A stretch of 64,000 nt of DNA from Amyelois transitella (Eukaryota > Arthropoda > Insecta > Lepidoptera > Pyralidae). The translations under genes and the position numbers were made by a program. Below, piece after piece: positions 3,001 to 55,875 of this stretch. Under the pieces are notes generated by a model, which saw only the letters and a list, made by a program, of their open reading frames with translations, was not told where the DNA came from and ran no database searches. Each line of letters begins with the position of its first letter. Position 1 is the stretch's first letter. The stretch lies in NCBI RefSeq assembly GCF_032362555.1, contig NC_083506.1:9223501-9287500 (forward strand). Direction: 5' to 3'.

Positions 3001-6000
3001 CTTTTGTTTGCATTTGCATCATGAAAAATGTAAATTTTACTAATGTAAGGAAAAGAAACTTCTGGAAAAGAGCTCCGACAGCACTTGTGATGAACATTAA
3101 GTGGATAAGTCAAGTTCATACCCATTCCTTAATGAAATGGAGAATACTTCAAACTTACTTACTTCTAATTTCAGGCAATGGTGTCCTTGCTTATTGTGAC
3201 GTTGCTGGTCAACTTGGTACATTAGTCAATTGTTATGGTAAAGACAGCAGCAAATTTGGTGCAGATGACAATTTAGATGATATTGAAATGGTTGAGAGGG
3301 CAGATGGTAATATTTTATTACTTGTACTGGTGGATCGTTTAAGATTAAAAAAAATTACGCAAGTTAATTATGATTAATTTACTGTCTAAACCACTCCATA
3401 TCTTTCCCAAAGATGTAAAAGGCGACTAAGGGATAGGCTTATAGACCCTCTTGTAGATGATAGTTTAGGAAGTATGCTTTGAGGTATTTCTATGCTGAGT
3501 GATCATTGACTTGATGGAAAGATGCAAAAAGGAGGCAGAGCATGAAAATAACTGCAAGACAAATTAAATGTGTACTGCAACATTTGCCTAAAATCGTAAT
3601 AGCCAAGTTTCTATTTTAAAAGTATGGTTCGCACATAAGTTTGTAATGTATTATGTAATCTCTTCTTGCTTTTAAAAATATTGCAAAATAACTTTTAATA
3701 AAGTGAAGTATTATAGACTCAATCTTTTCTTAATTTTGCACAACAGATGACGGCTTAGTAGATGAACTTATCCAAGCGGACGACAGCGACGACGACAACG
3801 CCATTTCCCTGGAGAAGATCAAGAACGAGACTCTCGGGCTGCCCTCGGAGCCCGAGTCGCGGCCGCAGTCGCGAGTGGCCGCCGTCGCCGCCGCGGTGCC
3901 GCGGCAGCCTCCCTTCCAACCGTCTTCTACGCCTTCACAGCTTGAGCATAGGTAGGAAGCATGGACAAGGCTTCATGTTTGCCATCTGGGGATGACAACT
4001 GCGACCAAATATAGTGAACGGTTGCTTGTTCATTCACCAAGGAATGTATATGATTTCAAAAAAAAAGAAAAACAATTCTAGCTTAGGTACTATTTATTAC
4101 GTTATTTCAACAACAATAGTTATAAATGATTAATACGGCGTTTTGTAGTATATGAAGACACGCCGACTCGTTTTTTTTATGCAGCACTTATGAATTTTGT
4201 GTCTTTTTTTCAGATATCTATGTTGGAATGAAGTGGGCATAGTCAGATGTCATACTTTAGAGAACGGGGAATCTAGTATAGACGTTGAGTTCCACGACAC
4301 CAATGTGCATCACGGGATAAATCTAAATAACTATTTAAACCACACAATGGCTAGTTTGTCCACAACTGTGCTAGCTTTAGCATGTGAAACACCTAGGTAA
4401 GTGATGAAGTCTTTATTTGGGAGGTACATTTCTTAGACTGCGAAACATGTCCCTTTATACTTATAAATACGTTAAATCTTAAGTTGCCACGAGTAGGATG
4501 AAATAAGAAGTAAATACTTACGACAATTGGGCTGTCAGGCTCCTGGACGTTCCTAATGAACTTCTGTTTTGTGTGTCCAGCAAGTTGGTGTGCATCTCGC
4601 TGGTGGGGAGCAGCAAGGAGTGGTCGGTGTCGCTGCCGGACACCGAGGAGGCGGTGTGCGTCAGCGCGGCCGCGAGTGTGGTGGCGCTCGCCAGTGACGC
4701 TGCGCTGTTGCGGCTCTTCACGCCGCTGGGCACGCAGCGACAGGTAGCTCTCTCTCTCTCTAGCGCGCTCGCCAGCGACGCCGCGCTGCTGCGGCTCTTC
4801 ACGCCGCTGGGCACGCAGCGACAGGTATCTCTCTCTCTCTAGCGCGCTCGCCAGCGACGCCGCGCTGCTGCGGCTCTTCACGCCGCTGGGCACGCAGCGA
4901 CAGGTATCTCTCTCTCTCTAGCGCGCTCGCCAGCGACGCCGCGCTGCTGCGGCTCTTCACGCCGCTGGGCACGCAGCGACAGGTAGCTCTCTCTCTCTCT
5001 AGCGCGCTCGCCAGCGACGCCGCGCTGCTGCGGCTCTTCACGCCGCTGGGCACGCAGCGACAGGTATCTCTCTCTCTCTAGCGCGCTCGCCAGCGACGCC
5101 GCGCTGCTGCGGCTCTTCACGCCGCTGGGCACGCAGCGACAGGTAGCTCTCTCTCTCTCTAGCGCGCTCGCCAGCGACGCCGCGCTGCTGCGGCTCTTCA
5201 CGCCGCTGGGCACGCAGCGACAGGTAGCTCTCTCTCTCTCTAGCGCGCTCGCCAGCGACGCCGCGCTGCTGCGGCTCTTCACGCCGCTGGGCACGCAGCG
5301 ACAGGTAGCTCTCTCTCTCTCTAGCGCGCTCGCCAGCGACGCCGCGCTGCTGCGGCTCTTCACGCCGCTGGGCACGCAGCGACAGGTAGCTCTCTCTCTC
5401 TCTAGCGCGCTCGCCAGCGACGCCGCGCTGCTGCGGCTCTTCACGCCGCTGGGCACGCAGCGACAGGTAGCTCTCTCTCTCTCTAGCGCGCTCGCCAGCG
5501 ACGCCGCGCTGCTGCGGCTCTTCACGCCGCTGGGCACGCAGCGACAGGTAGCTCTCTCTCTCTCTCTAGCGCGCTCGCCAGCGACGCCGCGCTGCTGCGG
5601 CTCTTCACGCCGCTGGGCACGCAGCGACAGGTAGCTCTCTCTCTCTCTCTCTAGCGCGCTCGCCAGCGACGCCGCGCTGCTGCGGCTCTTCACGCCGCTG
5701 GGCACGCAGCGACAGGTAGCTCTCTCTCTCTCTAGCGCGCTCGCCAGCGACGCCGCTGGGCACGCAGCGACAGGTAGCTCTCTCTCTCTCTCTAGCGCGC
5801 TCGCCAGCGACGCCGCGCTGCTGCGGCTCTTCACGCCGCTGGGCACGCAGCGACAGGTAGCTCTCTCTCTCTCTCTCTAGCGCGCTCGCCAGCGACGCCG
5901 CGCTGCTGCGGCTCTTCACGCCGCTGGGCACGCAGCGACAGGTAGCTCTCTCTCTCTCTAGCGCGCTCGCCAGCGACGCCGCGCTGCTGCGGCTCTTCAC

Positions 6001-9000
6001 GCCGCTGGGCACGCAGCGACAGGTAGCTCTCTCTCTCTCTCTCTAGCGCGCTCGCCAGCGACGCCGCGCTGCTGCGGCTCTTCACGCCGCTGGGCACGCA
6101 GCGACAGGTAGCTCTCTCTCTCTCTCTAGCGCGCTCGCCAGCGACGCCGCGCTGCTGCGGCTCTTCACGCCGCTGGGCACGCAGCGACAGGTAGCTCTCT
6201 CTCTCTCTAGCGCGCTCGCCAGCGACGCCGCGCTGCTGCGGCTCTTCACGCCGCTGGGCACGCAGCGACAGGTAGCTCTCTCTCTCTCTAGCGCGCTCGC
6301 CAGCGACGCCGCGCTGCTGCGGCTCTTCACGCCGCTGGGCACGCAGCGACAGGTAGCTCTCTCTCTCTCTCTCTAGCGCGCTCGCCAGCGACGCCGCGCT
6401 GCTGCGGCTCTTCACGCCGCTGGGCACGCAGCGACAGGTAGCTCTCTCTCTCTCTAGCGCGCTCGCCAGCGACGCCGCGCTGCTGCGGCTCTTCACGCCG
6501 CTGGGCACGCAGCGACAGGTAGCTCTCTCTCTCTCTCTCTAGCGCGCTCGCCAGCGACGCCGCGCTGCTGCGGCTCTTCACGCCGCTGGGCACGCAGCGA
6601 CAGGTAGCTCTCTCTCTCTCTAGCGCGCTCGCCAGCGACGCCGCGCTGCTGCGGCTCTTCACGCCGCTGGGCACGCAGCGACAGGTAGCTCTCTCTCTCT
6701 CTAGCGCGCTCGCCAGCGACGCCGCGCTGCTGCGGCTCTTCACGCCGCTGGGCACGCAGCGACAGGTAGCTCTCTCTCTCTCTAGCGCGCTCGCCAGCGA
6801 CGCCGCGCTGCTGCGGCTCTTCACGCCGCTGGGCACGCAGCGACAGGTAGCTCTCTCTCTCTCTCTCTAGCGCGCTCGCCAGCGACGCCGCGCTGCTGCG
6901 GCTCTTCACGCCGCTGGGCACGCAGCGACAGGTAGCTCTCTCTCTCTCTAGCGCGCTCGCCAGCGACGCCGCGCTGCTGCGGCTCTTCACGCCGCTGGGC
7001 ACGCAGCGACAGGTAGCTCTCTCTCTCTCTAGCGCGCTCGCCAGCGACGCCGCGCTGCTGCGGCTCTTCACGCCGCTGGGCACGCAGCGACAGGTAGCTC
7101 TCTCTCTCTCTCTCTAGCGCGCTCGCCAGCGACGCCGCGCTGCTGCGGCTCTTCACGCCGCTGGGCACGCAGCGACAGGTAGCTCTCTCTCTCTCTAGCG
7201 CGCTCGCCAGCGACGCCGCGCTGCTGCGGCTCTTCACGCCGCTGGGCACGCAGCGACAGGTAGCTCTCTCTCTCTCTAGCGCGCTCGCCAGCGACGCCGC
7301 GCTGCTGCGGCTCTTCACGCCGCTGGGCACGCAGCGACAGGTAGCTCTCTCTCTCTCTAGCGCGCTCGCCAGCGACGCCGCGCTGCTGCGGCTCTTCACG
7401 CCGCTGGGCACGCAGCGACAGGTAGCTCTCTCTCTCTCTCTCTAGCGCGCTCGCCAGCGACGCCGCGCTGCTGCGGCTCTTCACGCCGCTGGGCACGCAG
7501 CGACAGGTAGCTCTCTCTCTCTCTAGCGCGCTCGCCAGCGACGCCGCGCTGCTGCGGCTCTTCACGCCGCTGGGCACGCAGCGACAGGTAGCTCTCTCTC
7601 TCTCTCTCTAGCGCGCTCGCCAGCGACGCCGCGCTGCTGCGGCTCTTCACGCCGCTGGGCACGCAGCGACAGGTAGCTCTCTCTCTCTCTCTAGCGCGCT
7701 AGCCACTCTAGAGCGCAGGTTGCACCTTTTGACCATTATCTAGCAAGTACTTGACCAACTTACAAAATAAAGTAATATACAAATAACATACTTAGTAGTA
7801 ACCTAAGATTTCGTTTCCAGGTGATATCGCTGGCCGGGCCGGCAGTGTGCCTGGCGTCGTACAACACGAGCGTGATGGCGGTCTACCACGCGAGCGAACC
7901 GGTTTCGGAACAGCACCTTAACATGGATATTGTTGCTATCAATGGTAAGTATATATAAAGCTAAGTCCAAGGAGGTGAAAGTGGTCTTACGGCGAGGGAA
8001 AAAAAACATCGTTAGGAAACCTGCAAAATCAGGCTATTTGATATAATATGGGGTAGATTCCATTAAAGTGTGAAGTTCAAACGGATCGCAGAAACCTGAC
8101 TTATCCCCTCCTGGATTGCGACCGTAGGTGACCTCTGGGCTCCCAACATGGCAAACCTGTCAGTAGTGAATATCCTAATTTACATCAAAAAAAATTTATA
8201 CTGCAAATAAAACTATCCTAAGCATTAAAGTTTTCTTCAAACAATTTTAGGTCGTCAAGTTCGCAGTAAAACTGTTCCTTTGCCCCTAACCTCGGGCTCC
8301 AAACTGTCTTGGCTCGGCACTTCCGATGTAGGGTCGCCATGTGCGTACGATAGTACCGGCGTGTTGCGGTTGTATGACGTCGCAAGTGGAATTTGGATGC
8401 CCGTATGTGACACTAATACGCATTCTAAAGGTGCTTCGGACTCTTGGTTTGTTGTTTCTGTAAGTAGCAGTTTCTCATATCTTTTTTTTTAATACATTCC
8501 AATATGTGTAGTTCTCTAGAATATTAAGCAGAAAATTTTACATGTTTCTTTATCAAGTGAAAGTAATTGTTAACCAATTTTTTAAATTGTCTAGGACAAC
8601 TTTTCGAGGAGACAAATGACTTAGTGAAGCTTTCCTATACTTCAATCGCAATACGCATATACACGATAAGAGATAATGATGGAAAAACATAAAATTTATA
8701 TGAAACTCTGTTTTTATTAATATTATTTTTCAGGTGTGTGAACCAACGCAAACAGTTCGTGCGATACTCTGTAGAGGAACGTCCTTCCCTCTCACTGTTC
8801 CTAAACCAATAGTGGCAGAATTGCCGATTCAGGTAAGACTACTGCTCGAGAAAAAATAAAATGCGAAACGGTTATACATTTTCGCGCGATTAAAAAGGCG
8901 GAGATTAAAATTCGATTTCACTTTTACAATTTTTATTTACTGATGTGCTATTTCAGTATACGATAGAGAGTTATTAATTCACAGATACCCCTCTGCGAGT

Positions 9001-12000
9001 TGGAGTCTGAGAAGTCTCAATATGAAGAGCAGTTAGTTCGCTGGGCGCATACCACTGCGGACGTCGACGTGAAGACTGCGAGGGAAACCTCACTAAAACT
9101 ATTTGCGGTGAGTAACAGAAAAGATTTCTACATACATACATAAAATCACGCCTCTTTCCCGGAGGGGTAGGCAGAGACTACCTCTTTCCACTTGCCACGA
9201 TCTCTGCATATTTCCTTCGCTTCATCCACATTCATAACTCTCTTCATGCAAGCTCGGCGGTTTCGGGTACTTTTGACCTGACCCTTTACCAGGACGTCCT
9301 TAATTTGATCAAGATACGTTCGTCTAGGTCTTCCCATTCCGACCTGCTTAGTCAACCTGTTTTCATTCATCCTCTCCACATGACCGAACCATCTCAACAT
9401 ACCCTTTTCTATTCCTGTAACTACATCTTCTTTCACATCACAACATTCCCTTATCACGCTATTCCTTATCCGGTCACTCAATTTCACACCCAATATACTC
9501 CTTAACGCTTTCATTTCCACTGCCTTTATTCTGCTTTCGTGCTTCTTTTGCCATACCCAACTTTCACTCCCATACATTAATGTCGGGACCAACACGCCCC
9601 TGTGCACAGCCAGTCGAGCCTTTTTGGATAGTTTCTGACTGCTCATAAAGGCATGCAAAGCCCCATTCACCATGTTCCCCGCGTTCACTCTCCTTTCAAT
9701 ATCACTATCACACTTGCCATCTGATGTAAACTTTGATCCTAGATATACAAACTCTTTCACTTGCTCAACTTTTTCTCCTCCAATCAAAATATTACTTCCT
9801 TCCCTACTGTCCTTAATGTTAGTATTCGGGCATTCTAAATGCAACCAACCTCCTTATTTAGTTTTTTCAAGTCGGAAAAGGTTTGTCATACATACCACAT
9901 CTACGCAGCGCCATAATGGCGATTCAAAGATGTAGTATTTTTAAAGATATTTGAGTATGTGCAATCTTCATCTGATCAGAGTTACATTTTCAATGCGGGG
10001 TATAGCAGCTTATGCAACTATCATTGACGCTTGTAGAGTTGTTTTTATTTGCCGTGTAAATATTGTTATTCCCGCGTGATATTTATCTAAAACGTGACAT
10101 AACTTTACATAATTTTAATTATATAAACAAAGTCACATCTGCAATAATTCCGAATTATCATTGTTTGGAATTATATTCTATGACGTAATTAATGCAGAGC
10201 ATATATAAACAATGTTTAATTAAGTTATGATTGTATAACAATTTTTTTTATGAATGATGTTTATCTATAAGTAGAAGTTTGTTTATAATAAATTGATTAG
10301 TTGGGTTAGTACCTTGTAACACAAGATTACGCCAGATTTAGATGATGAAGGTCCCTTTCAGATTATGGCTTTAATTTTTTTTGTGTGTGTATTTGTGCAA
10401 TTGCCTGATTTCTATTCTTTTCATTACAGTTGGCTTGTCGAAGTGAAATAGAACAGCGGGCATTAGAACTAATGGAATTATTAAAAGACGATCGTCTCCT
10501 GCCATTAGCGGCCAAGTACGCATCTCGCCTCGGCCGAGTTCATTTGGCAGATAAACTTACAAACCTTGCAGATACTTGGGAGAGAGACAATGAGAAGTTA
10601 AATGTAGCTCAAAATTCGCACTTCCTAGAATTAGACACGCAAGAGACGTATGACGTCACGAACACAGAGGATATGAACGCGAGTTTGATTATACCTCAGA
10701 AAGCTAAGGAGAAGAGAACGGAAAATATCACGCCAATTAAACCAGTGGTAAGTTATATTTATTTTGTATAAGGCGCCTGTTTAACATTGTCATGCAATGT
10801 TCCCTTAATAGAAAGGTTTTTTATTTATTTATCTTTTATTTATCATTTTAACGCCATAATTTAAAATAAATGAAAAGAAAATGAAGATAAAACATAAGAT
10901 GTGACTCGGACAGTCTAAACTTTAGACTGTGTTTAAGGTTTATGTGATAGCTTTAGACTCTAAACTCTAAAGCTATCACATATACCTTAAATACTTATAT
11001 TTTATCTAGCCTATCAAATCTTCGCCTGGTGGCGCAAGAAATCCCTTCAAAAAACAACAAGAGGCATCAAAGAATGTGCAAAGCCCGCTGACTTTGACGG
11101 AGAGGACTTTAGTCGAAGTGCACTCTTCAGATGACGTTTCGGAGAATAAAGATGTAAGTAATATCAAGTATAAATTATTTATCATTATCAATCAATAGAA
11201 TAGAACAGATTTATTTTCAAAATTGGATACGAGGTATCACTTATTGACGTCACATCACTTAAATCTAATTATAACTACTACCGCCTCCAAAGCGCATATG
11301 TAGAAGAAGCGGCGGAACAAACTACACTGCAGCATTTTCATCGGACGTCATTATACAAATATAGATCTTTTAAACTAAATCATGGACGAATGCACATTGT
11401 CTACATTTAAAACATGAATGAATGTAGAACTAGTTATTTCAATATGTACGAATATTTCGTCAAATAAATAAAGATAAAATAAAATATGTACACACTGTAC
11501 AAATTATGCCAACACCATGTCAAAAATGCACAAGCATTTAAGAGGCCATTATGTCAAGCTCGGGCCACACATGTTTAAGGCTTTCCTACAAAGCTCATTA
11601 TCAACATGTTTCCTACATGTTTGACTAATTGATAAATCCGTTATCTACTCAACTTCGAAATTCGTAAAAAGTCTTGAGAAATGTGTATGACTGTCTATTA
11701 AAACACCCGATTGCTTTTAAAAAGGGAAATTTTATATTTCAGCCATTAAAACCTCTCGACGGGGAAACCTTCGTGATTTGGTTCGATCGCAACAAGAAGG
11801 CATTAGAGCAGGAAAGTCCCGACCTTACTCCGTCAGAATTAACTCGCAACGCCGTCCGAATGTTCAAGAGTCTGCAGACTAAGACTAGCGACACCAACGG
11901 TAATAAGAGGAAACTAGACGAACACAGTGACGCCACGGATCCACCAATTACAAACGCCCCGAAACAATCCAAACTTAGTGCCTTTGCTTTTCAAAAGAAA

Positions 12001-12006
12001 GCTTAG
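83..12006 (+). CDS. WDHD1: WDHD1 / And-1 / Ctf4 replisome scaffold protein (5' partial, spliced)
   Basis: Trimeric hub that couples the CMG helicase to DNA polymerase alpha-primase in nuclear replication. Exons, all phase-consistent: 83-146, 282-397, 807-975, 3175-3306, 3747-3951, 4214-4396, 4581-4743, 7821-7944, 8251-8459, 8734-8832, 8985-9107, 10430-10747, 11010-11153, 11743-12006, ending in TAG. The first four encode WD-repeat segments (for example CQFSPCGEYLAG and AMAWNPKG). An acidic linker follows (DELIQADDSDDDN), then the central SepB-type beta-propeller, a helical region (LELMELLKDDRLLPLAAKYA), and a C-terminal HMG-like stretch (FVIWFDRNKKALEQESPDL) closing with KLSAFAF, a C-terminal signature that I recall from animal WDHD1. 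The N-terminal exons lie left of the window. The intron after 975 uses a GC donor, and the donor at 4744 sits in a tandem array. A polyadenylation signal lies at 12096. Identity is confident; individual exon edges are predictions. Confidence 0.93.
398..806 (+). other. WDHD1 intron with a decayed SINE-A tail
   Basis: AT-rich intron. Positions about 655-740 resemble the SINE-A segment around the phrases CCTTAGT, ACATCCATG and GGTTCTATTCT seen in the better copies at 20599 and 41346, heavily diverged. Nothing else is recognisable. Confidence 0.5.
976..3174 (+). other. Long WDHD1 intron with GC donor; unclassified retroelement-like insert
   Basis: The intron starts GCAAGT at 976 and ends at the acceptor before 3175. 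Its middle (about 1370-2445) is richer in GC than the flanks and contains a short open frame at 2284-2443 (starts MSEQRSADGVEST, 53 codons) ending in a 12-bp inverted repeat, GGTTCCGTAGCC at 2413-2424 and its complement at 2429-2440. A second GC-rich patch lies at about 2690-2810. I recognise no protein family here. A truncated mobile element or a promoter-like insertion is the likeliest reading. Confidence 0.4.
2413..2440. repeat. 12-bp inverted repeat, 4-nt loop
   Basis: GGTTCCGTAGCC at 2413-2424 pairs perfectly with GGCTACGGAACC at 2429-2440 across ATTT. It lies at the end of the small open frame in the WDHD1 intron. Confidence 0.85.
3307..3746 (+). other. WDHD1 intron with SINE-A fragment
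   Basis: Positions about 3395-3480 contain CATATCTTTCCCAAAGATG and GGCGACTAAGGGATAGGC, matching the SINE-A copy at 42262-42518 in the same orientation. The remainder is AT-rich with no recognisable content. Confidence 0.6.
4684..7704 (+). repeat. Exon/splice-donor-derived 81-bp minisatellite array, about 37 copies
   Basis: The unit is the last 60 nt of the WDHD1 exon that ends at 4743, followed by the donor (GTAGCT or GTATCT), a CT dinucleotide run and TAGC. I count about 37 copies by the conserved CAGCGACAG junction, at 4743, 4824, 4903, 4982, 5063 and so on to 7672. Unit spacing is 79, 81, 83 or 85 bp, the difference lying in CT-run length and in donors GTATCT versus GTAGCT. One copy, ending at 5773, has lost about 25 bp between short ACGCCGC repeats. 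The array ends in a partial unit near 7704. The first copy is coding; the rest should lie in the intron 4744-7820. The long minus-strand open frames over the array are periodic by-products of the repeat. Confidence 0.97.
7945..8250 (+). other. WDHD1 intron with SINE-like remnant
   Basis: Positions about 8065-8160 contain a GC-richer stretch (GAAACCTGACTTATCCCCTCC, then GACCTCTGGG) that resembles the tails of the tRNA-derived repeats at 32250 and 39545. Similarity is weak and judged by eye. Confidence 0.3.
9127..9860 (-). mobile_element. 5'-truncated RTE-type LINE, 3' end of the pol ORF
   Basis: On the minus strand an open frame at 9844-9146 (232 codons) encodes the region downstream of the reverse transcriptase core: FVYLGSKFTSDGKCD, then VPTLMYGSESW, then MLRWFGHVERM and a terminal [12 protein letters not shown]. 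These are hallmark blocks of the RTE/BovB-like pol C-terminus. The catalytic RT motif and the endonuclease are missing, so this is a 5'-truncated, dead copy. It ends next to a TACATACATA run at about 9127-9140, consistent with a 3' microsatellite-like tail. It lies antisense in the WDHD1 intron 9108-10429. Shorter 3' ends of the same family occur at 12578-12775 and 44615-44725. Confidence 0.85.
9861..10429 (+). other. Remainder of the WDHD1 intron
   Basis: AT-rich sequence, with a GC-richer short stretch at about 9890-9935. No gene, RNA or mobile element recognised. Confidence 0.5.
10935..10988. repeat. Snapback inverted repeat in a WDHD1 intron
   Basis: A 23-nt arm at 10935-10957 (begins AAGGTTTATGTGATAGC) is nearly perfectly complementary to 10966-10988, with an 8-nt loop. 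It ends about 20 nt before the acceptor of the exon at 11010, so it may cover the branch-point region. Confidence 0.85.
11196..11475 (+). repeat. Dispersed repeat SINE-B, copy 1
   Basis: This stretch (markers GACGTCACATCACTTAAAT and ACACTGCAGCATTTTC) recurs inverted at about 22370-22630 and in diverged form at about 37340-37570. It ends in AATAAATAAAG, like an A-rich SINE tail. It lies in the WDHD1 intron 11154-11742. The rest of that intron is AT-rich with nothing recognised. Confidence 0.7.
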
Positions 12007-12437: not shown

Positions 12438-15400
12438 CTAAGCATTGACAAGTTCAGCTTCATCAGGCCGCGGGAAGATGCCCTCTCTAAACATCCTCTG
12501 CCACTCACTGCCGTTCGGATAAGAGTACTTTTCTACCGTCTCTGGGAAGAACTGCGTGCTGTAGCCAGGATTCTGAAATATGTTAAAAGAAGATTTGAGA
12601 TAGTCAAAGGACGTCCTAGCAAAGGGTCAGGTCAAGAGTACCCGAAACCGCCGAGCTTGCATGAAGAGTTATGAATGTGGATGAAGCGAAGGAAGTATGC
12701 AGAGATCGTGGCAAGTGGAAAGATGTAGTCTCTGCCTACCCCTCCGGGAAAGAGGCGTGATTTTATGTATGTATATATGTAAAATTTGAGATGACTTAGG
12801 CGTGATCATATTGTACTTCTGTGTATGAATTTCAATCACTTTATGCCGAGTGGTCTCCTCTCTTTCTGTCTTCCGGTGGAGTTGCCAGCCGTAATAATCT
12901 TACGTCAGATGTTAATTATTAGGGTTAGGATATTACCATAAATTTGAAACCCAAGTTTTTGGCTTTATATGCCATGTATACATATTTTTTTTTACAATTG
13001 TTGTTTGAATGAACGAATTTCCTAACCTTAGGCGCCAAATATCTCGCATTCTCCACGACACATGGGTCGTAGAAGTGTTCGTGTTGTTGGTCCACGTACT
13101 CGATGAGGCGGCCGTCGATGGTCCCGGACAGACTCGCGTAGTCCCAGAATTGCAGGTGGTTCACCATCTCACAGAGACCTACCCCGCCGGCGTGCGGGCA
13201 TACTTTCACTGAAATTAAGAGGTATCTGTAACGTGATTCTTTGTTTTTATCAATCCCCGATGGAAAAAGAGGGATGACACCCCTCTTTTTCCATCGGTTG
13301 TATTTCAGAGCTGCACAAGCCGAAAACTGTTTTAAGAACCAGACCTTTAAGTCTACCAAAATATGAATAATCTATACTAATATTATAAAGCTGAAGAGTT
13401 TGTTTTGTTTGTTTATTTGTTTGTTTGTTTAAACGCGCTAATCTCAGAAACTACTGAACCGATTTGAATAATTCTTTCACTGTTAGATAGTCTATTTATC
13501 GAGGAAGGCTATAGGCTACATTTAATCCCGGATTTCCTACGGGAAACGTCAACAATGCAGGTGAAAGTTGAATGAGTCGGCCATCTGCGAGCTTTCCACG
13601 CGAACGCTGCGCAAACCAACAAACATATAGTAAAACAATGTACTAAAGACGTGAAGTACTCATTTTTTGCCACAAAAAAGTCCGCGAGAGCATATATTTA
13701 TCTCTTAAGGTTTACTTACAATAACCACTTTTATGTTCATTTTTTAAGATTATTTTTTCATTATAAACATGAGTTATTTTGAAACCAATTTTCTTTAATT
13801 CAGTATTAATCCTTATCCAAATAAATATGTTTATTACTTTCGGCTTTTCATGTAGACTAAAATTGCCATTTACAGTATATAAATCAGACGAATAGGTTTT
13901 GAGATATAGTCGTTATAAGCAATTTGCAGCGAAACATTTAATACGGCGAACCAGCGTTCTTTCTAATACGCGTGACCGCCTGACCTTTTATTTATTAAAA
14001 TCGGACCAGTAGTTTTGGAGATATATGCTAACATTGGTTTGCACAAACAAACGCACAACCTCTCACCCTAAACGCATATATACGGTCTCCGTTCGGTCGC
14101 GGGTAATGATGTGGGCCAAGTCGTCGCCAAGTCGCATAATAATTAGCAGCTATAATTGATAAAGACGAGGAGGATGTTTGCAAAACTAAATATGATGCCC
14201 AAAATAACTATTCCACGCGGACGAAGTCGCGGGCACAGCTAGTACTTGATATTTACCTACTTAGATTTTTATAATCTGTCGTTATTTTGTTGAACCAAAC
14301 ACGAAGTAACAAATCACCCAACCACGTACCAACCAACCAGCCAACTAAATATTTGAGCGCTGCCTAAACAACAATGCCGCCGTACCTTTCAGCTTCTCAG
14401 CCATGAGGTAGACCGAGAGGATCTCGTTGATGCCTCCGATGCGAGCGGAGTCTATCTGACAGTACTGCATGCCTCCACTCTGGAGGAACTGCTTGAACAT
14501 GACGCGGTTGGCGCACATCTCGCCGGTCGCCACGCCGATGCCCAACGGCCTAAAATTATGAACAACCTTAATGGAGGAACTAATGCAGTTATATAATTCT
14601 GAAAATAAAAATGTCATAACAATTTTTAGGTTCCCTTTTTTCTGTCTGATTGCATAGAAATAAGAATAGCATTTGCAATAAAAAGAGAGGATCGATAGAA
14701 TCCAATTTTATTCATTCTAAAACAAAATTTATATTTAGGAGTTTGCCTTCCAGATGTATCTCTGTACCGTAACCAATGCCCAACACCGCCGTTTCTTATA
14801 AATAAAATCAGGCGTTGAGTTGAGAGTGAGATTAAGAAATTAGTTCTAAACCACAAAACTTTTGTACCTGAGTCTTATGCAAATAACACTTACCGAAGGG
14901 CTTTGGAGATGGTCGCGTGACCGAGCACGTCGTCAGGCGAAGTGGGCTCCTCGATCCACAGAGGCTTCAAGTGCGCAAGTTTCTTCATCCATTCAATAGC
15001 TTCACCCACACTCCATGCTTGGTTGGCGTCCACCATCTATGAACAAATAAATTTGTTCTTCGCTTATTCTTCTTTCTATTTGTAAATAAAAAAAATGTTT
15101 CATTTATAAACTCAAAGATAACACATCTATGGGGCTTAGGTACGAGTATATTGCCTTTGCATGCGGTTTCGCCAGCATGAATGTCTATTACGTAAAAATA
15201 ATTCAGTCCATTTTGATTTTAAGTGAATGAATTTTTGAAATTGGTTGGATAATTCCTATTAGTGTAAATGAAATTTCTCACCAAAATTTTGTCGTTCCCT
15301 ATGTGCTTGCGCACGGCAGTACATCTTCTGAGGTCATCAGCAAGGTTAAGGCCAACCTTGACCTTGAAATTCGTAAAGCCGAGCTTCAAATACTTTTCAC

Positions 15401-53471: not shown

Positions 53472-55875
53472 ATGAATGCTCCGGCTATAAAAGAACCTGA
53501 TTCATTCTTATATTTCGCTTATGGCGCGAATATACTTCCTTACAGAATGCGCATGTACAATCTATCACCAGAATTCGTATCAATTGCACGAATTGAGGTA
53601 AGTTTTCCTCGTGAGGATTTTGTTTTTAACCCTTTCCATGCGGCTGGCGTATTATCACGTATAACTAAAAACCGTTGGCCACACGGTGGGCGTATTATTG
53701 CGTCCAAAACAATTCCTTGTGTTAAACGATTAGACCAATATGAAAGTTGGTTCCCCTGTACTGTAGTTATAAACTCAACAACCTTACGTGAAACGGTGGA
53801 AAAATACTTACTTATTATTATGTAGATATGAGTGCATGGTTTACGCCGATAGTGTTGTAAGCTTTTTATATAAAAAGTCTAATAAAAGGAGAATAATATA
53901 AATGGTAAGTTTATTACTTATAATTCTTAATAATGTGTTTTACCTCGACGATAATATTTTTAAAGATAAATCTTCAGATGAGACTCAAATTGACGAGCAT
54001 GAACCATATTCGCAACCAAATTTTATCGACGATGATGAGATGTCGCAAAGTATTTTATCTAGAAAACGAGGAAGAAACAATGAAATTTCTCCCGAAACTT
54101 TTGACGAGGTCAAAGAATCTCAAGTATTTAAGATACCGCAACGAATTTTACAAAATAAAGTGAAATGTTATGATGACTCTCCAAATCCGATAACACCATG
54201 TCCAATAAAAACACGATACAATGTACAAGATATGTCAACTAGCCAGTTACTTATTGTACCCTCATAAATTAAATTTTAAGCTACCCTCGTTACATTTTAT
54301 TATAACCATAGATTTTTTTTTTAAAGCATGATAAAATAATATAAAAAAATGTAAAATGAGTATGTAAAAAACTGAGTGTTAATTTGCTTATATGCTTGCT
54401 CATACCCAGTTGCCCAAAAAATTATTATGATTAATAAAAATTTGATTTCAATTTACTACATATTTCAGTTTTTTATAAAAAAAATATATATGCAAGTAAT
54501 TTTATATAAATATTTGATATTCTTTTTGTATTTTTGCAGCAAATGTTCATTATTCTCAATCATAATTCAATTTTGCTCATTTCTGCTTATAAAGACGTTA
54601 TTGTTTCAAGGTATGGCAACACCAAAATTGTCTATATAATTTTGAAAACGAAATAATACGCCATCCGCGTCTAGCGAAAGAAATTACAGAACGCAATAAT
54701 ACGCCTTCCGTACAGTAGAACCAGTTTTGTTAAGACGTAATATCTCGCCCATCGTTTTATAGAAGGGCCTTAATACAAAACCGCCCGTACAGAGACGGCG
54801 AAATTGAAATAATGCTTCCGCATGGAAAGGGTTAATCTAGCCCTAGAGGGCTGCTAAAGAAGCCTTCACAAATTCGAAGACCTCTTAAAGAAAGTATGGT
54901 GAATATGAAGCCTTCCTTCGCAAAGCACACCATCACCATATCCGACGATAAATCCTGATACCTTTTAATTATATATAATAACTGATAATAAATTTCTTAT
55001 TGCTATTTTTAAGTACCCTTATTCTTTATAGAATTATAGACTGGATTTCATAAAATATTCCAAATATTGGGGAGGACCTACAGCTACGTTAGTGCCGACT
55101 GCCAATGCTCATGCATGGGGTATCATTTGGCGCATGAAAATCAGCGACAGGGATTCCTTAGATGGGTAAATCATTTGGTAAATTACTAGCTTTCGCCCAC
55201 AGCTATCAACCAAAATAAACCCCAAATGTCATAAAAATCGGTTTAGTGGTTTAACTGTAAATTGGTAACAAACACTAATCGAGTTCGACTCTTTTAGCGA
55301 AATTCGATGGTTTTTCCTTTGAAATTTTGATGGTTGTCCATTTTAGTGGAAGGGCACTAACAAATTTGACCTATATGTGTCATTTAGCATAGATATGCCA
55401 ACGTTTGAAGAATACAATGTGTAAACTTCGGACTATAAAATATTTTGTGTAGTACCTATGTAACGTTCATATTTTTAGATTGAAGGAAGTAGAGGTGAAG
55501 AAATATTACGTAAAAATAGTTGAAGTTTTGACGCCATACATGGGATACTTTAGATGTCGAACATATATTCAGAAAGTTAACCCCTTGCCTAGAGGAGATA
55601 AGGACACCATTCCCGTGGAACAATGGCCTTCATGGTCCTACCAGCGCATCATGTTGCTCGGTGCGATAGTGAATGAGCTGCCAGAATATTACATCAGTTT
55701 TCTGCGTAAATTGAAGCATAATGATGACGAGGGCTGCGTGCGCACAGACTGCCTACTGGTCCGTTACTCGCGGGAGCCACCTTGCGAGTGCCGCGTGCCC
55801 GGCAGGATCCCCAGGCTGCCTCTCAAGCTCGATTTGAAAACGAGAAACGTCAGAGTGCAGGCTCAGACCAGATGA
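53472..55875 (+). CDS. Gamma-glutamylcyclotransferase paralogue 3, catalytic Glu replaced
   Basis: Exons 53472-53597, 55032-55165 and 55479-55875 give 218 residues. The fold is clear: SFLYFAYGANILPYRMRM, then NYRLDFIKYSKYWGGPTATL, AWGIIWRM, GYFRCRTYIQKVNPLPRGD and MLLGAIVNELPEYYISFLRK. Two active-site changes stand out. YGSN is YGAN, and the LD-QEGV block reads LDGLKEVEV, putting Lys (K89) where the catalytic Glu lies in the paralogues. The C-terminus has an Arg/Cys-rich extension of about 40 residues (REPPCECRVPGRIPRLP) absent in paralogue 2. The reading frame is intact, so this looks like a re-purposed, probably non-catalytic paralogue, not a pseudogene. A piggyBac-like element sits in intron 1. 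Polyadenylation signal at 55892. Confidence 0.88.
53630..54831 (+). mobile_element. piggyBac-like non-autonomous element with TTAA target duplication
   Basis: The ends CCCTTTCCATGCGG (53630-53643) and CCGCATGGAAAGGG (54818-54831) are perfect 14-bp inverted repeats flanked on both sides by TTAA (53626-53629, 54832-54835), the piggyBac signature. Subterminal motifs recur inside both ends (GCGTATTATT at the left, AATAATACGCC at the right). At 1202 bp it is too short for a transposase. It occupies intron 1 of GGCT-3 without touching splice sites. Confidence 0.92.
53902..54267 (+). CDS. Acidic open frame inside the piggyBac-like element
   Basis: 121 codons within the TTAA element. After a hydrophobic start the product is acidic and polar (DETQIDEHEPYSQPNFIDDD) with a basic patch, SRKRGRNN, and later FKIPQRILQNKVKC. 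piggyBac transposases begin with an acidic, disordered region of this sort, so it may be the leftover N-terminus of a deleted transposase. No DDE motifs are present. The ATG is directly followed by GTAAGT, a splice-donor-like context, so the true start is uncertain. The function is unknown. Confidence 0.4.
   Translation: MVSLLLIILNNVFYLDDNIFKDKSSDETQIDEHEPYSQPNFIDDDEMSQSILSRKRGRNNEISPETFDEVKESQVFKIPQRILQNKVKCYDDSPNPITPCPIKTRYNVQDMSTSQLLIVPS
55166..55478 (+). other. GGCT-3 intron 2 with repeat scrap
   Basis: CTAGCTTTCGCCCACAGC followed by AAAATCGGTTTAGTGG at about 55185-55250 is a short remnant of a common lepidopteran retroelement-associated repeat. Nothing else recognised. Confidence 0.45.

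Follow-up and report, generated by a model that had tools for sequence, protein, structure and literature searches.

How can an essential gene such as WDHD1 (Ctf4) carry dozens of copies of one of its own 5′ splice sites, and how would such a structure have arisen? The question is raised by a 64,000-nt stretch of the genome of the moth Amyelois transitella (NCBI RefSeq assembly GCF_032362555.1, contig NC_083506.1, positions 9,223,501 to 9,287,500 of the forward strand; hereafter the window, in whose numbering all positions are given), where a tandem array at 4684-7705 starts inside a coding exon of WDHD1 and runs through most of the following intron. We consider it probable that this array is a young minisatellite, likely to vary in copy number, which arose from one tandem duplication over the 3′ end of the exon and was later amplified, the first donor being the one mostly used and the array being spliced out.

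Structure of the array

Direct parsing of the assembled sequence gave 37 head-to-tail units at 4684-7695 and, directly behind them at 7696-7705, 10 nt that nearly match the start of the unit, and Tandem Repeats Finder (TRF) reported a period of 81 bp with 37.1 copies over 4684-7705 (score 4440). This agrees with the original prediction, made from the letters of the window, of about 37 tandem units that each span the exon-intron junction with an exon end, a GT donor and a CT run. On the same array TRF also returned periods of 166 (5750-7705, score 3563) and 247 (score 5484), which are the sums of two and three unequal units, respectively. Each unit begins with an exon-derived stretch ending in CGACAG and continues with GTA, GC, the CT run and AGC, except that copies 2, 3 and 5 lack the GC. 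Of the 37 copies, 36 have 60 nt of exon-derived sequence (copy 14 has 37 nt), which is identical in 35 of them. The intron-derived part comes in four lengths, 21 nt (21 copies), 25 nt (nine), 23 nt (four) and 19 nt (three), the differences lying in the length of the CT run plus, in the 19-nt copies, the absent GC. The commonest unit is 81 bp (60 nt of exon and 21 nt of intron). That a single unit is repeated was a fair description in so far as the copies are near-identical, but copy 1 has three synonymous substitutions and copy 14 a 23-nt deletion; because copy 1 differs at these three sites, the internal copies do not simply reproduce the exon end as it now stands.

The array consists of head-to-tail, near-identical units within the size range of about 10-100 bp that characterises a minisatellite, and its length and unit identity rule out an origin by chance. 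With one unit as query in blastn-short, the longest match elsewhere in the window was 12 nt, and no dispersed copies were found there. A shuffle test revealed no higher-order pattern in the order of unit types, although TRF scored the period of 247 above that of 81: the longest repeated run of unit types was 7, against a shuffle mean of 5.6 (p = 0.19; p = 0.15 in the 3′ part). Adjacent units with long CT runs were rarer than in shuffles (p = 0.08 in the whole array and 0.03 in the 3′ part), a result of one of four tests on which we do not lean.

The extreme uniformity of the 35 identical exon parts might indicate that the copy number is an assembly artefact and that the actual allele contains a single copy or only a few. 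However, the array is interrupted by differences in CT-run length, by the three copies with the GC deleted and by the one 23-nt deletion, variants that a simple duplication at a contig end would not produce, and we regard an artefact of this kind as quite improbable. It was also noticed that the array is GC-rich (about 0.70) with CT/GA tracts, as could suit a minisatellite under selection for a non-splicing role in chromatin or DNA structure. Against such a role, RNA folding of the unit was no better than in 200 shuffles (z = 0.12, 1.14 and 1.12 for 60, 81 and 160 nt; the test covers RNA only), no structured RNA was matched by Rfam at 4000-8500, and the near-zero divergence among the copies points to youth or rapid turnover; we take it to be extremely unlikely. 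In IMG/VR, the exact 33-nt unit pattern had 0 matches, and a 166-aa stretch of WDHD1 had 2 pattern matches, none of which was confirmed.

The host gene

A model of fourteen exons, with splice sites picked by hand, extends from position 83 as far as a stop codon at 12006 and has one open frame of 770 residues, the 5′ end of the gene lying beyond the window edge. The product contains the Pfam domains Mcl1_mid (PF12341, 5.5e-82), Ctf4_C (PF20946, 1.5e-16) and the first WD40 domain of WDHD1 (PF24817, 3.4e-40; incomplete where the window begins), all above cut-off, and a match to HMG_WDHD1 (E = 1e-4, 22.6 bits) below the curated cut-off of 51.6. The best matches among solved structures were WDHD1 chains (E = 5.3e-104), and the alignment with human WDHD1 was ungapped where exon 4581-4743 meets exon 7821-7944. 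Judged by these domains and alignments, the host gene is WDHD1 (WDHD1/AND-1/Ctf4), the identity first proposed for it. The gene model and the ungapped alignment also bear out the proposal that copy 1 represents the actual end of the exon, in frame, exon 4581-4743 ending in phase 0 with its acceptor exon at 7821, and place copies 2-37 in the intron. The array thus takes in an authentic coding-exon donor, at 4744, which closes an in-frame exon. The segment from donor 37 to the real acceptor may be read as the remainder of the original short intron; a short intron before the expansion would have been ordinary, since nine of the other 12 introns in the model span 135-440 nt (the remaining three being 589, 1322 and 2199 nt).

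Repeated donors and predicted splicing

All 37 units carry CAG/GTA, which reads CAG/GTAGCT in 34 and CAG/GTATCT in copies 2, 3 and 5, so that the 37-fold multiplication of the 5′ splice site, as originally described, can be specified as 34 donors identical over 9 nt and three with a changed +4 base. When each donor was joined alone to the real acceptor, donor 1 gave the normal protein, donor 2, at 4825, added 27 residues in frame, and with each of the remaining 35 the model met a stop after residue 376. Donor 1, which is transcribed first and alone yields the normal protein, would mostly be the one joined to the acceptor at 7821, the array being discarded as a 3,077-nt intron. That the WDHD1 frame stays open through 14 exons via donor 1 counts for this reading, and the tolerance of the array by an essential gene would be most simply explained if donor 1 were used and the rest discarded. 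Since leaky use of donors 3-37 gives premature stops, the array would be expected to be tolerated, at most lowering or tuning WDHD1 output with copy number. With 37 donors, one transcript and one acceptor, and with only the first two donors keeping the frame, the locus is a natural experiment in splice-site choice, for which RNA would tell whether the first-made or the nearest donor wins.

Alternatively, the array might regulate splicing, its additional donors vying for U1 or making the intron longer, and copy number would then set the WDHD1 dose through unproductive isoforms or through loss of the exon that follows. The premature stops given by 35 of the 37 donors when used alone would suit such a role. 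Skipping of exon 7821-7944 also stops the frame early, after residue 356 of the model, and excerpts of two reports on human genes offer parallels, in that skipping of ABCA7 exon 19 goes up with the length of a variable number tandem repeat (VNTR) (PMC5954066) and the VNTR in TERT intron 6 alters splicing (PMC3948165). On the other side, the use of the internal donor in ABCA7 is unchanged with VNTR length in the same excerpt (PMC5954066), and no sign of selection for the array was seen in the sequence of the window. A regulatory array therefore seems unlikely to us.

Acceptor-like sequence in the units

The donor and the CT run had been recognised correctly in the original prediction, but the TAG in which the CT run ends was missed, and with it an acceptor-like part: every unit consists of a donor, 13-18 uninterrupted pyrimidines and AG. 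An AG preceded by such a run was found in 37 of the 184 cases in the array (one per unit) versus 1 of 3194 elsewhere in the window. Because a CT run with TAG amounts to a pyrimidine tract with AG, the unit repeats acceptor-like material besides the donor. In a splice-site matrix built from the 12 other introns of the gene, with native acceptors left out in turn, which is small and rough, the array acceptors scored from -1.58 to 0.69; 10 of the 12 native acceptors were above the best of them, 21 of the 37 were below all native ones, and 21-35% of the AGs elsewhere in the window scored as high. The acceptor-like feature appears clear in anatomy and weak as a predictor of use. With respect to intron gain, for which a duplicated segment supplies GT and AG, both are present in each unit, the AGs being low-scoring as acceptors.

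If the donor of one unit paired with the TAG of a later one, 61-nt pseudo-exons would enter the mRNA. Besides the pyrimidine runs before AG in all units, such use could draw on a match to yUnAy (TTCAC), whose A precedes the end of the TAG by 43 nt in the one unit that was measured, and a 61-nt pseudo-exon included three times (183 nt) leaves the frame open. The low matrix scores speak against it, as do the GT-AG distance within one boundary, which is only 18-24 nt, and the finding that in none of 36 cases did the frame survive the addition of a single pseudo-exon, which was 61 nt long in 35 of them and 38 nt in the other; the entry of pseudo-exons into the mRNA is, in our judgement, very improbable. 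Carried further, the array would be a cassette of up to 36 micro-exons with variable inclusion, every third restoring the WDHD1 frame, and copy number would then alter the WDHD1 protein as well as its dose, a proposal that we find highly doubtful.

Origin and turnover

Comparison of exon 4581-4743 with the remaining intron (7673-7820) revealed that only one of 21,406 10-mer pairs matches at 9 or more positions, and this single 9/10 pair coincides exactly with the breakpoints, one member, GCGCTCGCCA, lying at 4684 and the other, GCGCTAGCCA, at 7696. The position of the pair suggests that the first duplication was microhomology-mediated. In this step, GCGCTCGCCA in the exon would have mispaired with GCGCTAGCCA about 80 nt downstream, past the CT run in the short intron, to give a tandem duplication of 60 nt of exon and about 21 nt of intron. 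Were this origin true, the intron in relatives would be expected to be short (about 150 nt), with a CT run and TAGCGCGCTAGCCA beside the donor.

The 35 full-length exon parts among copies 2-37 (2,100 bases) contain zero substitutions, and copy 1 departs from them at three of its 60 sites, having T instead of C; the probability of all three differences being synonymous by chance is about 0.05-0.07. The common ancestor of the internal copies thus seems to be far more recent than the one that they share with copy 1. With 35 of 36 internal copies identical and copy 1 divergent, copies 2-37 were presumably amplified or homogenised after the first duplication, or else copy 1 was exchanged with another allele. 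Unequal exchange or slippage would have led to 37 copies and kept copies 2-37 alike, and copy 1, being under coding constraint, would have kept or gained its three synonymous differences. A single duplication over an exon-intron junction can, on this account, grow without breaking the reading frame of the gene.

Several points weigh against a young minisatellite of this origin that is spliced out through donor 1: 1) the array donor is weak by the matrix, scoring 3.83 (3.35 in the GTATCT form) with 11 of the 12 other donors of the gene higher, and its 36 rivals are equal or nearly so; 2) the choice of donor 1 is one that we infer; 3) at least one 10-mer pair matching at 9 or more positions occurred anywhere in 15% of 200 shuffled exon-intron sets, so that the position of the pair at the breakpoints is what counts; 4) the 9/10 match could be a truncated last copy instead of prior microhomology; 5) either state of the three T/C sites could be the older, polarity being a matter for a relative; and 6) block amplification is not shown, since the longest repeated run of unit types matches the shuffles (p = 0.19, as above).

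Comparison with known arrays

Tandem duplication over an exon-intron junction to this copy number had originally been called unusual. This overstated its rarity, as the excerpts of published work compared here describe a splice-donor minisatellite of comparable or higher copy number in human ABCA7 and another in human IFI6. In ABCA7 intron 18, the exon 18 donor is the starting point of a VNTR with a 25-bp unit (Acta Neuropathol 2018, PMC5954066). The human reference contains 23.7 units, the smallest allele 12, and an expanded allele of 9711 bp about 390 by our own arithmetic; splicing also takes place from the donor that lies one unit further on, which yields an out-of-frame transcript alongside the canonical one, a precedent that counts for the reading of the WDHD1 array preferred here. 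Both are tandem arrays starting at an authentic donor beside a coding exon; unlike the ABCA7 unit, which comprises 25 bp of intron sequence only and starts at the GT, the WDHD1 unit measures 81 bp in most copies and includes 60 nt from the coding exon as well as a pyrimidine tract with AG. The ABCA7 case is backed by RNA and population data in that account. The IFI6 repeat unit is 12 nt. Its minisatellite units form alternative donors at an exon end, three mRNA species being reported from two downstream units used as donors (PMC4526556, citing Turri et al. 1995), a likeness to the WDHD1 array in that the repeat units carry donors at an exon end, the IFI6 unit being much shorter and human.

Three further systems, likewise taken from excerpts, share part of this anatomy. 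In potato RdRp, a tandem duplication over an intron-exon boundary made a new intron (PMC4974935); there, as in WDHD1, the duplication crosses the boundary and doubles splice signals, but it is one duplication on the acceptor side with a new intron as its product, whereas the WDHD1 array has 37 copies on the donor side and no demonstrated new intron. The TERT intron 6 VNTR, with a 38-bp unit, is intronic and affects splicing of its gene (PMC3948165). GC-rich tandem repeats also fill introns of coding genes in GC-rich bird genes and are hard to assemble, and no unit with an exon end and donor is described in the excerpt of that paper (PMC6792250). An excerpt on Drosophila intron gain and loss (PMC3296678) offered no closer match, and in open-licence papers on similar arrays, intron gain by duplication and competing splice sites, Lepidoptera and butterflies included, the matches listed contained no such array in WDHD1 or in an insect.

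Judged by anatomy, the WDHD1 array belongs with the splice-donor minisatellites of the ABCA7/IFI6 type. What is new against these two, going by the unit itself, is the presence of 60 coding bases and acceptor-like sequence in each unit. With similar cases in two human genes, the array is a striking variant of something already known. It suggests that splice-donor minisatellites of this kind also occur with coding sequence in the unit.

Feature coordinates and other observations

Table 1. Features of the WDHD1 array, its flanking exons and other parts of the window
Feature	Position	Strand	Remarks
WDHD1 coding exon	4581-4743	+	Last 60 nt are copy 1; third-position GC 0.93; ends in phase 0
Copy 1	4684-4764	+	Authentic exon end (60 nt, three synonymous T instead of C), donor GTAGCT, CT run, TAGC
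Authentic 5′ splice site CAG/GTAGCT	4744-4749	+	Phase 0
Copies 2-37	4765-7695	+	Intronic; identical 60-nt exon part in 35 of 36
Copy 14	5737-5796	+	23-nt deletion in exon part, between two ACGCCGC stretches (flanks read by eye)
Donor 37 to real acceptor	7673-7820	+	148 nt; read as remainder of original short intron
Right-hand near-match GCGCTAGCCA	7696-7705	+	9/10 match to unit start GCGCTCGCCA at 4684-4693; breakpoint microhomology or partial last copy
Next WDHD1 coding exon	7821-7944	+	Acceptor TTTCGTTTCCAG/GTG
Open reading frame with enolase C-terminal-like domain (MR_MLE_C, 1.4e-12)	14348-14707	-	Probably exon of a neighbouring gene
Weak AIG2-like match	55453-55872	+	Below curated cut-off

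The GC content at third codon positions (GC3) forms a mosaic in WDHD1, being high in exons 3747-3951 (0.74), 4581-4743 and 7821-7944 (0.73, with 0.90 in its first half) and 0.25-0.59 in the other eleven, among them the exon between 3747-3951 and 4581-4743 (0.38). Beside the array and its two exons, the intron sequence that was measured has a GC content of 0.28-0.42. GC-biased gene conversion around the array was considered and not concluded, because the right-hand intron has a GC content of only 0.28-0.33 and GC3 is likewise high (0.74) in an exon some 0.7 kb upstream.

Within the same gene, the intron after exon 807-975 has an apparent GC donor (AAG/GCAAGT at 975-976), and a perfect 14-bp inverted repeat, GTGATAGCTTTAGA...TCTAAAGCTATCAC, lies at 10944-10979 in the intron ending at 11009. 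Three places, 9149-9853 (-), 12674 (+) and 44718 (-), encode the peptide NVDEAKE with tails that resemble one another to a varying degree, one of these sites being within a WDHD1 intron; the 235-aa open reading frame at 9149-9853 (-) had no Pfam match and is presumably a retroelement.

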